Source: Acheta domesticus (Eukaryota > Arthropoda > Insecta > Orthoptera > Gryllidae). Taken from it: a DNA stretch of 64,000 nt. The stretch covers positions 104,683,271 through 104,747,270 of the forward strand of contig JAHLJT010008756.1 of the NCBI GenBank assembly GCA_031308135.1, written 5' to 3'. Every line of letters starts with the position of its first letter. Within the stretch, counting starts at the first letter, position 1. The notes below the pieces were generated by a model. That model was not told the DNA's origin. It ran no database searches and saw nothing but the letters and a program-made list of their open reading frames with translations. A program made the position numbers and the translations under genes. Of the stretch, positions 9,641-60,190 are shown one piece after another.

Positions 9641-12020
9641 TATCAATTATTATAAAACTAGTGGTGCTACAACAGCACTTACTTTCCCGTATTAGAGGAA
9701 ACAGCTAAGTAGTACTGTAATATTGCACTTTATGCGCTACTAACATCTTCGCTTGGAACTCACTATTTCCATTGCAGTGTTGTCAGAACTATGTGAATTC
9801 TACAACTTCACAAAATAGAATGCAAAAGTTTTGTAACCCTGTATTGGAAAAAGAAGCCTGATACCCTGGAAATATAGAAATGCCTTCCATTGGGCCATGA
9901 TTAGGGAAGAGTATTTTAAAACCATGCAACAAATTCTCTACTCACCACAAATGGTACAGCATTTGGTGCAAAACTAAATATTTGCCTGCAAATATCAACA
10001 TAAATTAGACAATTATAACTCCTTTTCATACAGCTCCATTAGCTCACAACAATGACACTAATTCACAGATATTCGCGAGCGCAAAGTGAATTCCATTGTT
10101 GCAGACCCTGCATTGTCGCTATTCTGAGAACTATTAATTCTTTTTACTTATTTCAAATATTTCAAAATAAACAATTTCTAAAATATTAATGTGTAAATCT
10201 ATAACAAAGTTCGAATGTAAGAAACGAAGAAAGAAATAATATACAAAATTGCACATTCTAATTTACGACGCATCCAGCTGTCCGAAGCGCAGTAAATTTA
10301 CAGCGGCCTATTACGTTTGTCACAAAATTAAAGAAAAACTACTCGTATTTTGAAAAAATTAAGCATGACCGTATTTATTTTATTTATTTATTTGTCAAAA
10401 ACAGAAACAGAATGGCACAGACTTTCCCGTATTAGTTTTCTATTTTCCTGCTTCTTCGCTAGCTATTCGGAATTGCCACATACTCTTTCTTGCCAGCTAC
10501 CATCTATCATCGCCAAAAGTACATTTTTTGTCATTTTCTTAATTTTTCGGTTTCCTATTGGTAGAACAGAAACATTAATTTTAGAATATTAAAGAACACA
10601 AAAACCTAGCCGTAAATGGCAATTTTCTTTTAAAAATTATGTGCCGTTTAAGAGAAAATGGCGTTTTAGCACTACTAAAAATGCGAAATTTGAAGCTCAT
10701 TTTCACAGAAAATTTTTGAGCTTTTCAAAATACTTTATTTGAAGTTATTTGAAGCACTTACACTCACAAATATAATCATCTTTACAAATTGCGCATAATG
10801 TGCATATTAAAGATGTGAGAGATCTTTCAAAAAATTTATATTTATATAATTTTTGAAAAAAATCGAAAAAAAACTCAAGATAAACTTCACGCTATACTAA
10901 TGAGTGTAATTAGCACTATCCGTTACAAAAGTTTCAAGAAAAAAATTGCAGCCATATACGAGAAAATGACGTTTGAGCATTTCTGAAAATGCCGAAATTA
11001 GAGCTACTTTTCACAGAAAACGGTAGTGTTTTCGAGAAACTTTACTTGACATTATTTAAAGCATATATACTCGTAAATATAATAATGTAAAAAAATCGCC
11101 GATAATGTAAATATTAACGACGTGAGAGACAAGTAAAAAAAATTACATTTAGGTAATTTTTGAAAAAACCGAACCGATAGACCAAAATGGCTTTTATGTC
11201 ATTGATAGAGTACATTTACCACTATCCCTACCAAAAGTTTAAAGAAAAAATTGGGAGCCGTTTTTGAGAAAATCTTGTTTTTGTAATTTTTTAAAATTGC
11301 ACATATTGCACTCAATATTGCACGAAAACTACCAAAATTGTGAAAAACATTTACATGACCTTTATTAAAGAACTCCAATATGCAGAACAAATTTTATTTG
11401 AAGAAAAAATCTCTATCTTCAATTTTGTAGTTGGAGAAAGACGCCGAAAAAAATTCAACTTTCACAATTTTCGAAAATTCAGAGCTGTACGTGAAAATCG
11501 GACCTATGCCATGTTAATTAATTAAAAGTGCGTATTTCCTCTATTCATACAAGAATTTGAAAGACAAAATTTGGAGCCGTTTTTGAGAAAATGTTGAAAA
11601 TCCCCGGGGGCCTTCATATAAAGTACCCCCAAATTTTAAAGAATCTTTTTCAAAATCACAAAGCTTCGACTGGAATCAGATCGACTGGGGAATATCAATT
11701 TTGAAGAAAATCGACCGAACGGTTTAGGCGCTAGCGTTGACCACAGACGGACAGACGGACAGACGGACGGAATGCCGTCAATCGATTTTTAAGTATAAAG
11801 AAGCAACAAATCATGGATTTTGACCACACCACGAGATAGAGGATTTTTTTTTCTTAATTTAGCAACTGGTTTTATCCACTTATTCGTTTTCACGACCCGG
11901 CAATTAATTTTTTTCCGCCGAAAATTGGCCATTTTTTCGCGCAGCATTACATAACTTTCCCTATACTACGTATATCACTCCGTGTATACGTACGTATACG
12001 GGAAAAGTAAAAACACTTTA
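9640..12020 (+). mobile_element. Repeat family A ('GGACAGACGG' family), near-full copy
   Basis: This block matches 17811-19650 in reverse complement and 41020-41990 in the same orientation. Landmarks in order: ACTAGTGGTGCTACA start (9658), a second start-like block AGACTTTCCCGTATTAG (about 10420), repeated GAGAAAATGGCG-type units, ATCGACCGAACGGTTTAGGC, the CCACAGACGGACAGACGG run (about 11742-11770), CCGAAAATTGGCCATTTTTTCGC, and an end near ACGGGAAAAGTAAAAAC. CTTACTTTCCCGTAT near the start and the complement of the end (TTTTTACTTTTCCCGTAT) look like short inverted repeats, suggesting a class II element. It has no coding capacity. About 690 bases after the first start (9710-10400) are not shared and may be a separate insert. 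Confidence 0.6.
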
Positions 12021-17810: not shown

Positions 17811-19650
17811 TTTACTTTCTCCGTATATAATACGTATATACGGAGTAATATGCATAGTATAGGGAAAGTTATGTAATGCAGCGCGAAAAAATGGCGAATT
17901 TTCGGCAGAAAAAATTCCGTTGTCGGGCCGTGATAACGGAAATGTGGATAAATCCAGTTGCTAAATTAAGAAAAAGAATCCTCTAACATGTGATGTAACC
18001 AGACAATCTCTTTTGTGGCTCCTTGATACCGAAAAACTAATTGAAAGCAAAACGTCCGTCTGTCTGCCGGTGTATATGAAGAGCACTATAGTGTGATTTT
18101 TCTAACTGTGCCCCTCAAGCCCTTATGTCCACGATGGAATATCACACGGCATTTCGCGTTTCTCCGTTGTGCCGCTAGAAGTCGCATTATCGCAAACACT
18201 GCTTGATACGGTCGCGATTATGCGATACCTGGCGTTACGACTGAGAACGTCGCGAAATACCGTGACGTATTCCATCCTGAAGACGGGTCTTCAGGGGCAA
18301 AGTTAGAAAAATTGCAGCATAATGCCTAAACTATGGGTATGATTTTTTCCAAATTGAAGTACCTTGTCTATCTGACCTGAGTCGAAGTTGTGAGTCTAAG
18401 TTTTTTAAAAACATAATTAATATTTGGGGGTTCTTTACATGAAGCCCCCTCGGACATTTTCAAACTTTTCTGAAAAACGGCTCCTAATTTTTTCTTTAAA
18501 TTTCTTGTGAAAATAGAGTAAAATACACTTGTAAAGGCGGCATTGGTCCGATTTTCATGGTTAACTCCAAATTTTTGATAATTGCGAAAGTTTGAATTTA
18601 CAACGGCGTCTTCCTACAACTACAAAATTCAAAATAGAGATTTTCCCTTCAAATGAAATTTATTGTCCATAATTATTTCTTTCATTAAATTTTTGTATAT
18701 TTTTTGAAAATGTTAGTAGTTTTCGCGGAATGTTGCGTGCAATATGTGCTATTTCAAAAAGTTACAAAATCAAGATTTTCTCAAAAACGGCTCCAAATTT
18801 TTTCTTTAAACTTTTGGTAGGGATAGTGCCTTATGTACTCTTTGAGATGTCATAAACGCACAATTACACTATTATTTCTTTTTTTCAAAAATTACAAAAA
18901 TTTAATTTTTTGACTTGTCTTTCACATCGTTAATACTTACATTAGCATCAAATAGTTCCGTTATTATATTTATGAGATGTGTTTTAAACAATGTCATATA
19001 AAGTTTCTCGAAAACACTATGATCTGAAGTTTTCTGTGAAAACTAACTAAAAGTTCCGCATTTTCAGAAATGCCCAAACGCCATTTTCTCATATATTGCT
19101 CCAAATATTTTCTTCCAACTTTGTGGTAATTGTACTCTTTAATACGACGTAAGATAATATTGGGGTATTGTTTTTTTTTTCACTTTTTTTTCAAAAATTG
19201 CACAAATTATTTTTTTGAAAGATCTGTCACGCTGTTAATATGCACATTTCCAGCAATTCGTAAACACTATTGTATTTGTGAGTAAAAGTCAGTAAAATGA
19301 CTTCTAATGAAGTGTTTCGAAAACTCAAAACTTTTGTGTGAAAAGAGCTTGAAATTTCGAATTTACAGGTTGCGCATAAACGCCATTTTCTTAAAAACCG
19401 CTTCAAATGTTCCAAAGAAAATTGCCAGTTAGGACGAAGTTTCACTGTTTTTTAATATTCTTAAAATAATATTTCCGTTCTACTATTAGGAAACCGAAAA
19501 ATTAAGAAAATGTCAAAAAAATGTACTTTCCGAGGCGATGGATGGCAGCTGACAAGAGTATGTGGCAAGACCGAATAGGTAGCCGCGACCAAAGAAATAG
19601 ACAACTAATACGGAAAAGTCTGTGCCATTCTGTAGCACCACTAGTTAATA
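17811..19650 (-). mobile_element. Repeat family A, reverse-orientation copy inserted in a tandem array
   Basis: The reverse complement of this block follows the copy at 9640-12020 almost end to end, from ACTAGTGGTGCTACAGAATGG (complement of about 19650-19630) to the TTTTTACTTTCTCCG end at 17811. It carries a 243-bp MITE (18083-18325) near the GGACAGACGG-type segment. The decayed GTTGGCGTTG-type array resumes on both sides (up to about 17805 and from about 19665), so the element inserted into that array. Confidence 0.6.
18083..18325. mobile_element. MITE with long terminal inverted repeats, nested in repeat family A
   Basis: The two halves are near reverse complements: GCACTATAG...ATTTTTCTAACTGTGCCCCT on the left pairs with the complement of AGGGGCAAAGTTAGAAAAAT...CATAATGC on the right. 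Pairing continues inward through GATGGAAT and CGGCATTTCGCG-type blocks to a centre near 18200. The right junction is sharp because CCTAAAC of the family A consensus resumes at 18325. There is no ORF. TIR length suggests a foldback or MITE-type non-autonomous DNA element; the target duplication is not clear. Confidence 0.6.
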
Positions 19651-48345: not shown

Positions 48346-48480
48346 CTGAGGCAGCGGCCCGGCTCGGCCCCGCTCGGCCCAGTGCGCCCCCAGGCCCAGG
48401 CCCAGGCCCCTCGCGCCCACGCGCACGGACAGCGACGGAAGCTCTTAAACTCTTAACAAACACTGACCAACGTTTCCTCC

Positions 48481-49187
48481 ATGAGATTCGATCGGTTGGA
48501 AACGCTCGCCTGTACGCCGTCTCCTACAGCACTGGACTCTAAAGCGACCAGCATGGCTTATCACCCGTTCCTCCTGCAGCGGCCCACAGACTTCAGCGTG
48601 AGCTCGCTGCTCACCGCGGCCGGCGGGGGCGGTGCAGGTGGCGGCGGGAGCGGCGCGGTCGGAGCCGGCAACGGAGGCGGCGGCGGCGCCGGCGGGGGCG
48701 GCGGCGCGACGCCGAGCGGGGGCGGCCCCGGGGGCGGCGTGACGCCCTCGGCCGCCAGCCCCACGGGCCCCGGCGCGGGCGGCGGCGGCGCCGCAGTGCC
48801 CGGCGCGCCCGACCCCGGCCCGCCGCACCAGTACTTCCCGGCGGCGGCGCTGGCCGCCCTGGGCGCCGCGCCGGCCGCCTGCTACCCGGGCACGCTCATC
48901 CCCAAGCTGCCCCATCACCCGCACCACCCGCCGCCCCCGCCGCACCACCACCCGGGCGCGCTGCCGCCCGCCGCGCACCCCTACACCACGGCGGAGGACG
49001 TGGTGCTGGCGGCGGCGGCCGCCGCGGCCGCGCACCACCACCACCCCGCCATGGTGCGGCCCCTGCGCGCCATCCAGCCCGAGGACGACGGCGTCGTCGA
49101 CGACCCCAAGGTCACGCTCGAGGGCAAGGACCTATGGGAGAAGTTCCATAAGTTGGGCACCGAGATGGTCATCACCAAGTCAGGCAG
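48481..49187 (+). CDS. bi: T-box transcription factor of the Tbx2/3 - optomotor-blind (bifid) subfamily, first coding exon
   Basis: Tbx2/3/Omb proteins are nuclear T-box DNA-binding factors, mostly repressors, that pattern limbs or wings and the optic lobe. The frame shows the subfamily N-terminal signature [20 protein letters not shown] at residues 25-44. A Gly-rich low-complexity tract follows (about 47-95), then Pro/His-rich (about 141-160) and Ala-His (about 174-190) tracts. After an acidic PEDD linker comes the start of the T-box, [16 protein letters not shown] then [13 protein letters not shown] (about 207-235). The exon stops after AG of the Arg codon, at a perfect donor AG|GTGAGT (49186-49193), as at the first coding exon boundary of vertebrate TBX2/3. 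Two in-frame ATGs exist. 48481 gives a short MR... extension like that of vertebrate TBX2 but has a poor Kozak context (T at -3). 48553, the MAYHPF methionine, has A at -3 and G at +4, so leaky scanning could make both forms. The rest of the T-box is beyond the window. Subfamily assignment is firm; fly versus vertebrate naming is by orthology inference. Confidence 0.94.
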
Positions 49188-49199
49188 GTGAGTGCAGCC

Positions 49200-57529: not shown

Positions 57530-57729
57530 GCGCTCTCAGTGCTGTGCGTCTGCGTCCGCCGTTCTTCGCCCGGCGAGCGCGCGCTGGGCGCTGAGCGAGG
57601 CGTTTTTCTGCCAGCGCCGGCCGCGCCTTCGCCTTCCTCGAGCGAAGCGCCATCCGCGGCCGGCGCGTTCCGCCATCAGCGGCCGCATCTCTGCCTCGCG
57701 GGCGCGCGCAGGCGGCGCCGCTGGCGGCG
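57530..57729. promoter_or_regulatory. GC island of the T-box intron, left part (split by Transib)
   Basis: CpG-rich sequence with many CGC/GCG words begins abruptly after AT-rich sequence and runs up to the Transib left end. It resumes directly at the right end (59919), so the two parts were probably one island before insertion. Apparent ORFs on both strands are Arg/Ala-rich artefacts. Function is inferred. Confidence 0.45.
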
Positions 57730-57770
57730 CACAGTGTTCTTTTTTACGCATCTAGGACGACAAAAATCAA
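57730..57770 (+). repeat. Left terminal inverted repeat of the Transib element (23-RSS-like)
   Basis: Heptamer CACAGTG at 57730-57736 is identical to the consensus V(D)J heptamer. A 23-bp spacer follows, then ACAAAAATC at 57760-57768, one base from the consensus RSS nonamer. It pairs with the right end over 41 positions with 7 mismatches. Confidence 0.9.
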
Positions 57771-58134
57771 TTTCTCAAAAACTACTCGTCCAATCTCGAT
57801 GAAACTTAACATACAGCATACACTAAGAACACTTATTATACTGTCAGTGTTCCATAATTATATCTTTAATATTTCAATGGGTATTGTTATACATGGCTTT
57901 TAATTAATGAATATATCAATTAAATACCTCTCAATTTCTTCAGTTCAAAATAATGCAGCTAATTTTCTCCTCTCTATTTGTCACGATTTGCTATCTGAAC
58001 ATAACAGGAGTAAAATTATAAATTTCTATGAATTATTACGATATCGTTCCTAGTAAAAATGGCAAAAATTCACTTACCTAAAATCAAAGGCAACAGACTG
58101 TTCACGAAGGGTCCTCATCCCTCGCCTCTGATAC
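57771..58134 (-). other. Non-coding interior of the Transib element between transposase remnant and left end
   Basis: AT-rich, without an open frame of note. On the minus strand, a pyrimidine-rich tract ending TTTTAG is directly followed by GTAAGTG (near 58070-58080), an abutted acceptor and donor. The missing C-terminal half of the transposase should lie here but does not, which points to an internal deletion. Confidence 0.5.
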
Positions 58135-59287
58135 TCACTGAGTAGATTTATTTCCAGTTAAAATGTTGCATATTTTTCCATCAACCATCGTCATTTGCAA
58201 ACTGAAGGTTACTGAAATTTCTTTCCCAGCTACATGGATAATTATAGGTTCCAGCTTTTTGATTTGCTTCTTCACATTACAATACTCTTCTTTTACAACC
58301 TGTGCAGACTCTTTCACATATCGCACTTTAAGAGAGCAACAAAACCGTGTTGATGATGTTCTGGGGGTTTGCCACAATAATCGGCATTCACTTTTGTTGA
58401 TTTCCAGTCTCAGAGGTACAACAGAAACGATAAAATTATTTCCATCAGATGCAGAATCCAAAAACTTGTGTTTGTAAGTACTGTGACCCGAACTGCCATC
58501 ACAACCCCATTTGCTAAGTAGTGTATACGACTCAAATGCTCTCATATCCATCACCTGCTCGGCCACTTCCTTTTGTGCCTCGAAAAGGGGCTCAGTTGTT
58601 GGCTTTAGAAGTGCTTGTAATCGTACTTCTGCAAATGTCACCTACACGGACATGCTCACTTGCGGGATAGCAATCCTGCTTGGCTTCGAGAACTGCGGAA
58701 TATGGTGGAAACATGTTAAAATGTCTCTGTTTTGATTCCTTGTACGAAAATTTGTATTGATGTACCGTTGATTTGCTATCTATAAAATATGCTAGAGCTT
58801 CTTCTTTGGTATACGGTATACCTTCATTCTTCTCAGCAACAGCACGAGATCTTTTTGAATTAGTTTCTCGTTGAGGAGAAGCCTCACTCAATTCTCTAAC
58901 AATGTCCGCAGCATCTCGCTTTCCTGACTGTATAAGAGAACTTTGAGTAGCAAAAGATAATTCTTTCGGTGATCTATTTTTTAATAAATCGTCAACTTTC
59001 CTTCTGTTGCTTCTCTCAGTACAATCGTGGAAAAGTTTCATTGGTCGGCCTTTTTTTGTTGTTTCTTCACTTCTTGTTTTCTGTGGTGTAATAAGACATT
59101 CAGTGAATATGCTTTCTGGAAAACAAATGCTTCCAGCGAGCCACGCCTTGTTTTGTAGCACAAATCTTTCTAGATGTCTTCCACATTTCCCCCATTTTGT
59201 CTTCATTCTTGCTACGAATGAATGTAAAACATTCTTAATATTACGCTCGGAACCCTTTGAACACTGTTGGATGTTCAATATCTGCAC
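58135..59287 (-). pseudogene. RAG1/Transib-type transposase, disrupted and C-terminally incomplete
   Basis: Two overlapping minus-strand frames make one protein-like stretch. The first (59287 to 58592) has a WGKCGRHLERFVLQNKAWL block, KGRPMKLFHDCTERSNRRK, then FNMFPPYSAVLEAKQDCYP. The second (58641 to 58135) continues with AEVRLQALLKPTTEPLF, SKWGCDGSSGHSTYKHKF and VTFSLQMTMVDGKICNIL. The CDG block is where I place the first catalytic Asp of the RAG1/Transib DDE nuclease, from memory of the family. The frames switch by one base near 58640-58655, so there is a small indel or an assembly error. The upstream frame has no ATG: it opens just after an in-frame TAG, in an acceptor-like ...ATTAG context. 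The second frame ends ACTCA|GTGAGTAT, a strong donor-like site that includes the stop. Nothing downstream supplies the other catalytic residues. The TIRs and target duplication support the family call independently. Confidence 0.7.
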
Positions 59288-59289
59288 AG

Positions 59290-59877
59290 TCTAATTGTAA
59301 AGTTCAATACACTCGCTCTTTCTGTCGCCCCGCTACCACTGCTCGAACAGCTCGCGCCGGCAGACAGAACGCTCAGCCACTGAAAATGATAAATATTTCT
59401 TAAACGCGCAAGAATGCGCACAAGATAAAAACGAATACTTGTTACCAGATGTCTACGGGTCTACACAACGAAATATCTCCGTGTCTTCACGTGCATTCAT
59501 TAACTTATGTCTCGATAAAAAGTGAATTGAGAATTTTTTTATTCCTTTTCTAGTGTCATTTTAAAGCCTTATAGAAGGAAGCCCGTACAACACATCGCAA
59601 AGTCCCATATTCCATTTGAAAGTACATACAATGATCTTGAGAATCCATAGCACAAAATGCATATAAGACGCTAAAGAACGCAGGAATCTAACGCACGAGT
59701 CGAACTTTTAAACGCCACTGCGGCCGGGCTTGGACACCGTCAGCGGAAGTCTATATTTAGCTCAGTGTCTTATCAGTACAGTCCGGTCAGAAATGATACA
59801 GCCATCGATTCCGTATGATTTGAAGCTTTTGCAGTGCGGTGAGCAATGAATGGAAGCCCATACGTGAAATTAAAAAT
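59290..59877 (-). other. Upstream interior of the Transib element (no coding sequence seen)
   Basis: About 590 bases between the transposase remnant and the right terminus. No frame resembling a transposase N-terminus is visible, so it is either promoter or 5' leader of the element or a decayed first exon. A stretch at about 59320-59370 is more GC-rich than the rest. Confidence 0.45.
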
Positions 59878-59918
59878 TTGATTTTTGTCGCCCTAGAATG
59901 GGAAAATAGAACACAGTG
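59878..59918 (-). repeat. Right terminal inverted repeat of the Transib element (23-RSS-like)
   Basis: Read on the minus strand from 59918: heptamer CACTGTG, 23-bp spacer, then ACAAAAATC (59888-59880), identical to the 9-mer at the other end. The outermost CAC is conserved. The fourth heptamer base differs (T for A). Confidence 0.9.
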
Positions 59919-60190
59919 CGGCGGCGGCGGCGCGGGCACATCCGCCGCCGGCGTGTAAATTCACTTGCACCTTCCGCACGGCGATAAACTCAGGCGGCGG
60001 CGGCGGCTGCGGAGGCGAAATTTCGCGCCGCGCGGCGTCGCGACGCCAACATGCGAACTTGGCTTTAATTACGGCGGCGTCCGGCGACGCGAGGCAGCCG
60101 CCGCGCGCCCCCTCCGCCCCCGCCGCCGTCCACGCAGCCCTCGCCGGCAGACCTGCGTCGCCTCAGCTCCCCCTGCGCGCCCGTAGTCTC
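59919..60190. promoter_or_regulatory. GC island of the T-box intron, right part (split by Transib)
   Basis: Starts with CGGCG (the target duplication) inside a CGG run, followed by CpG-rich sequence with CGGCGG runs and a central stretch near 60045-60080 containing TTTAATTAC. It continues the island that ends at 57729. Confidence 0.45.

Follow-up and report, generated by a model that had tools for sequence, protein, structure and literature searches.

Does an insect transposon whose two ends resemble the recombination signal sequence (RSS) of V(D)J recombination carry that resemblance as an ornament, or are both parts of the signal read by the transposase of its family? The question is raised by a stretch of 64,000 nt from Acheta domesticus (assembly GCA_031308135.1, contig JAHLJT010008756.1; hereafter the window, to whose positions all coordinates refer unless stated otherwise), which contains a complete transposon insertion of 2189 bp at 57730-59918. 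Very probably, the element belongs to an insect Transib family as a non-autonomous copy with an internal deletion, mobilised in trans by the transposase of other copies; this degree of confidence covers its identity and its mode of spread, and does not extend to the reading of the nonamer, which is graded separately below.

The ends of the element and the copies that share them

The consensus RSS is composed of the heptamer CACAGTG and the nonamer ACAAAAACC, with 12 or 23 bp between them (PMC8289069). The left end of the element matches this layout at 7/7 heptamer and 8/9 nonamer positions and the right end at 6/7 and 8/9, with both 23-bp spacings exact. The original prediction, made from the sequence alone, had placed a heptamer, exactly 23 bp and a near-consensus nonamer at each end, and its coordinates are borne out; its further statement that the heptamer is an exact consensus at both ends holds for the left one (CACAGTG) and fails for the right one (CACTGTG), which departs at position 4. 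Six CACWGTG sites occur in the 64 kb, and only at these two ends is one accompanied, 10-26 bp away, by a nonamer with at most two mismatches; the spacing is 23 bp in both cases, and the same search revealed no partner spaced 12 bp. With 23 bp at either end, the element does not point to a 12/23 rule. For a nonamer with at most one mismatch at exactly 23 bp, 200 sequences simulated with the dinucleotide content of the window yield an expectation of 0.01 sites per 64 kb, against two observed. When compared with each other, the two ends agree at 6/7 positions of the heptamer, 17/23 of the spacer and 9/9 of the nonamer, and the similarity between the inverted repeats stops about 5 bp past the nonamer.

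In order to collect further copies, we searched the assembly (2.33 Gb, 6511 contigs) with the left 101 bp of the element; 40 matches were scored from 55 first-look candidates, the window's own copy (L011) included, a copy number that is a lower bound and may contain duplicates. These matches are scattered across the assembly, and nine of the 40, the window's own among them, are 100% identical over the query. Thus, where the original prediction presented a single copy as standing out, the element belongs to a set of some 40 or more non-autonomous copies. The heptamer CACAGTG is found at the left end of all 40 fetched copies and CACTGTG at the right end of 36, and the nonamer stands exactly at 23 bp in 37/40 left and 34/40 right ends. 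The left-end counts are biased upward, because the left end served as the query; the right-end misses include L039, the right end of which lies outside the fetched region. The three left nonamers that were missed had been displaced or altered by small indels. The prediction had named an unconserved 9-mer or spacer, and a protein falling outside the RAG1/Transib group, as outcomes that would speak against it; the check across copies found the 9-mer at 23 bp to be conserved, and neither outcome came true.

Taken alone, the CGGCG duplication that flanks the window copy is weak evidence of transposition, as its surroundings are GC-rich and repeat-like, and weight is added by the exact 5-bp target duplications (85% GC) of 33 of the 40 copies. 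An exact duplication is missing from seven copies, L012, L014, L023, L030, L039, L045 and L046; the right flanks of L012 and L014 are 99% alike over 451 bp, and these two may represent one insertion. For L027 and L037, the flanks resemble each other on either side (83% and 88%), but the duplications differ. At the target sites of the 33 copies with exact duplications, inspection by eye of base counts points to CGNCG within a palindrome that extends some 8 bp outward from the centre.

Relative to the copy L043, the element of which is 2976 bp long, a deletion of 787 bp is common to 38/40 copies and has removed the C-terminal part of the transposase with its catalytic Glu. L043 possesses this third catalytic residue, but also one stop and one frameshift, and its interior has diverged by about 8% from the deleted form. 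The consensus of 35 aligned copies (L021, L033, L043, L045 and L048 were left out by length), from which the copies differ by 2.0% on average, already bears the frameshift of the window copy, and the frameshift is therefore older than the spread of the family. Given the shared deletion and the frameshifted consensus, the amplified template was unable to make a full transposase and would have been moved in trans. An intact transposase gene was not seen among the 40 fetched copies. The 1732-bp element of L048 is an independent deletion derivative (95-96% identical to L043, positions 654-1893 of which are gone), so that non-autonomous forms arose more than once in the family. The 4584-bp element of L045 is the deleted form with a 2.4-kb insertion at element position ~1835. 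The idea that selection preserves the open frame of the truncated transposase, for use as a repressor, was rejected on the grounds that the 35-copy consensus is frameshifted.

The transposase and its N-terminal domain

Two transposase fragments of 232 and 168 aa are encoded on the minus strand between the ends, in overlapping frames that differ in phase. Although the 232-aa fragment alone matched no PDB sequence, the 168-aa fragment matched the HzTransib transposase of Helicoverpa zea (6PQN, E=4e-18) across both catalytic Asp motifs, in agreement with the RAG1/Transib-type remnant that had been predicted between the ends. Of 2542 candidates obtained with a query joined from both fragments, 64 are homologues at E<=1e-3, and those of their records that name a taxon come from insects, apart from one hookworm and one spider. 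A profile built from the 168-aa fragment and 17 homologues (A1) matched 17 PDB sequences, HzTransib at 1.5e-178 and RAG1L/RAG1 at 1.4e-12 to 5.2e-9; in most cases the best-matching stretch lies in the C-terminal part, absent from the window copy, and in three cases within the part retained. The L043 frame itself matches 6PQN at E=9e-93. At the level of the family, the two Asp and one Glu found in L043 and the homologues align to HzTransib D126/D225/E436, the catalytic residues given in PMC6941560; the window copy retains both Asp, and its Glu lay inside the deleted 787 bp. The family combines a Transib-type DDE transposase, a 5-bp GC-rich duplication, CAC inverted repeats with an RSS-like heptamer and, as judged from the one copy L043, a single transposase gene with no RAG2 partner, all of which are features of Transib.

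A Pfam scan of the two window fragments detected no RAG1 or Transib model and one CD4 match (E 0.094). With the Pfam RAG1 model, homologue P0001 passed the curated cut-off, the L043 frame matched but fell short of it, and homologue P0013 had no match; PF26100 is precomputed for many homologues, including P0001 and P0013, and was absent from our Pfam scan of P0001, P0013 and L043. Pattern searches for relatives in viral_contigs and genome_contigs produced 27 and 30 matches, respectively, none of which was confirmed. An intron starting from the good splice donor CA/GTGAGT at the end of the second, 168-aa fragment was also considered and rejected: L043 reads through this point and the 787-bp breakpoint coincides with it, so that it is the edge of the deletion.

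The longer, N-terminal frame contains a GRP-motif domain with four predicted helices that resembles the nonamer-binding domain (NBD) of RAG1. A profile of this domain, built from the window sequence and 19 of 26 GRP-bearing homologues (P0019, P0021, P0024, P0026, P0033, P0039 and P0045 were omitted), scores weakly against the RAG1 NBD, with consistent ranking and register: GRP and one Arg align to the register of RAG1 R391-P392 and R402 (residue names from PMC6941560). A GRP-bearing NBD equivalent was reported in 2022 in Transib subgroups I and II (PMC9435367), and the domain found here is most likely the same one. As far as these weak scores allow, the family appears to have both halves of a nonamer-reading pair, an A-rich nonamer and an NBD-like domain, which would interact with each other. 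The RSS likeness of Transib ends has long been known, being credited to Kapitonov and Jurka 2005 (PMC7204232), and the added point is this N-terminal domain.

The comparison with HzTransib is instructive. This biochemically active transposase, represented by 6PQN and five further PDB entries, belongs to the same superfamily and shares the colinear catalytic region with D-D-E, the CAC-type heptamer and a 5-bp GC-rich target duplication, GCTCG (PMC1852546, where the deduced protein is given as 489 aa). However, its deposited chain begins past the GRP region (profile position 158 corresponds to chain residue 6), and its ends are described as having little or no similarity to the nonamer (PMC8289069), whereas both the GRP domain and the nonamer are present in the family described here. 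As is known for HzTransib and RAG, the transposase of this family would nick immediately 5' of CAC and form hairpins on the flanks; transposase supplied by other copies would cut and paste the deleted ones in trans.

As for other Transib families, consensus heptamers and nonamers are reported to be identical in some of them, with various spacer lengths (PMC6941560), and according to a figure legend the spacers are symmetric and 20-22 bp long or, in some families, asymmetric (12/23) (PMC8355894). Compared with the families of Kapitonov and Jurka, as described in the papers that cite them, the present one has 23 bp at both ends, CACAGTG/CACTGTG and ACAAAAATC. The available text of PMC9435367 on subgroups I and II draws no link between the GRP domain and a nonamer at a fixed 23 bp in one family, and the word 'nonamer' is absent from the available text of a 2025 preprint on RAG evolution (PMC11844651). 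No Transib family is stated to have both a GRP domain and a 23/23 near-consensus nonamer in the literature searched, the coverage of which is partial and does not prove novelty. Vertebrate RAG1 and the 23-RSS show the same order of parts, namely NBD, DDBD and RNase H in the protein and heptamer, 23 bp and nonamer in the DNA; the differences are that the present family is a transposon with symmetric 23/23 ends, that no RAG2 gene was seen in it and that its identity to RAG1 is low.

Competing readings of the ends

Among the 35 aligned copies, substitutions amount to 2.1% in the interior (1436/69428) and 1.0% at the right end (14/1338; p=0.006). Within the right end, 6/551 fall in the heptamer and nonamer (p=0.13 vs interior) and 8/787 in the spacer (p=0.04); at the left end, biased as the query, the figures are 2/560 and 13/803. 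Over a longer time span, the two 39-bp ends are identical between L043 and the deleted form, and five changes are found in each of the next 81 bp. The recent copies therefore indicate that the end is kept as a whole and do not single out the nonamer.

Two views of recognition can be set against these data. The first is that this is an ordinary Transib whose ends are recognised by their heptamer, and that the A-rich 9-mer found 23 bp further in is inherited or compositional and goes unread; we consider this plausible, at somewhat less than an even chance. A-runs arise easily, cleavage of its own ends by HzTransib is reported (PMC6941560) even though these have little or no nonamer similarity (PMC8289069), and the spacer of the right end is kept among copies as well as the heptamer and nonamer are. 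Nevertheless, an unread 9-mer does not readily explain why the nonamer is fully identical between the ends when the spacer is not, why the inverted repeat ends about 5 bp beyond it, or why L043 has kept both 39-bp ends intact while its interior differs by ~8%; the better preservation of heptamer and nonamer over spacer at the left end argues in the same direction, though that end was the query. The second view, that a RAG2-free insect family reads a true bipartite 23/23 signal, the heptamer by the catalytic body and the nonamer by a RAG1-type NBD, is one that we put forward tentatively and with some doubt.

A RAGL transposon, with genes for RAG1L and RAG2L, is a very unlikely identity for the element. 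ProtoRAG and other RAGL elements do share CAC ends, 5-bp duplications and a RAG1-type enzyme with an RAG1-type catalytic domain and an NBD* (PMC7204232). On the other hand, RAGL elements carry RAG2L, the second end element of ProtoRAG is not an A-rich nonamer (PMC8289069), the similarity of ends among protostome RAGL is reported to be limited to the outer 13-15 bp (PMC7204232), and the closest solved relative of the present transposase is by far HzTransib. The coding strand of L043 has three frames of at least 80 aa, all with transposase motifs, and on its opposite strand no stop-to-stop frame exceeds 112 aa, a criterion of length to which no homology search was added. A frame of 112 aa is too short for a RAG2-like gene, and neither L043 nor the window element has, besides the transposase, a frame long enough for a RAG2L (kelch/PHD) gene.

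Genuine recombination signals of an antigen-receptor-like locus, which the heptamer, 23-bp spacer and nonamer would fit, are improbable in the extreme in view of the 40 dispersed matches, 33 of them with their own 5-bp duplications, the transposase remnants, the insect host and the lack of a 12-bp-spaced partner in the window. A chance match in repeat-rich DNA, to which the GC-rich repeat flanks and a coincidental 5-bp duplication might lend some colour, has a negligible probability with two facing sites where 0.01 are expected and heptamers shared by 40 (left) and 36 (right) copies.

Feature positions, surroundings and significance

Table 1. Features of the Transib element and its flanks, in window positions.
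Feature	Position	Strand	Basis
Target site duplication, left copy, CGGCG	57725..57729	none	flank comparison; copies
Left terminal inverted repeat, 44 bp, 82% to the right one	57730..57773	+	
Left heptamer CACAGTG, exact RSS consensus	57730..57736	+	sequence; 40/40 fetched copies (biased: left end was the query)
Left spacer, 23 bp	57737..57759	+	
Left nonamer ACAAAAATC, 8/9 to ACAAAAACC	57760..57768	+	exact at 23 bp in 37/40 copies (biased: left end was the query)
Breakpoint of the 787-bp internal deletion	58131..58136	none	comparison with L043 element positions 402-1190
Transposase fragment, 168 aa, first two catalytic Asp (KWGCDG, MTMVDG); catalytic-Glu region deleted	58135..58641	-	homology to HzTransib
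N-terminal transposase frame, 232 aa, GRP nonamer-binding-like domain and DDBD-like region	58592..59290	-	frame differs from that of the 168-aa fragment
RAG1 NBD-like domain, GRP motif, four predicted helices	58835..59059	-	
Right terminal inverted repeat	59875..59918	-	
Right nonamer ACAAAAATC, 8/9 to the RSS nonamer	59880..59888	-	exact at 23 bp in 34/40 copies
Right spacer, 23 bp	59889..59911	-	
Right heptamer CACTGTG, position 4 departs from RSS consensus	59912..59918	-	36/40 copies
Target site duplication, right copy, CGGCG	59919..59923	none	flank comparison; copies

Elsewhere in the window, a frame at 48457-49191 (+), in a stretch of 78% GC, looks like the first exon of an optomotor-blind (Tbx2/3-type) T-box gene, with PF11078 and PF00907 on its matches. 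Among the 120 matches listed, of 183, those that bear a taxon name are all from insects, which supports an insect host. The Transib element lies about 8.5 kb downstream of this exon and is presumably intronic. An inverted repeat pair of about 1.3 kb (10407-11712 and 18341-19633; 76% identical), to which further pieces around 41.4 kb and 1.4 kb are related, is probably a different family of repeats, one in which no terminal inverted repeats were identified. A segment of about 243 bp at 18083-18325 has nested imperfect inverted arms and resembles a miniature inverted-repeat transposable element. Rfam and tRNA scans of the window yielded no match.

As an annotation, the element would otherwise be an ordinary non-autonomous DNA transposon. 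The original prediction saw its value in tracing RSS origins. In so far as this rested on RSS-like ends, the point had already been made, since that likeness is established superfamily-wide; it is the NBD-like domain that supplies what such a use needs. The profile's PDB matches include no Transib other than HzTransib, and HzTransib cannot show the origin of nonamer recognition, because its deposited chain is without an NBD-like domain and its ends reportedly are without a clear nonamer. If the bipartite reading is true, nonamer reading and the 23-bp spacing would be older than RAG2 and the 12/23 rule, and HzTransib would be a derived form in which both halves of the pair have been lost. A family with the domain, with a nonamer at the RAG spacing and with many copies offers a test system for whether recognition of the nonamer by the NBD predates RAG2.
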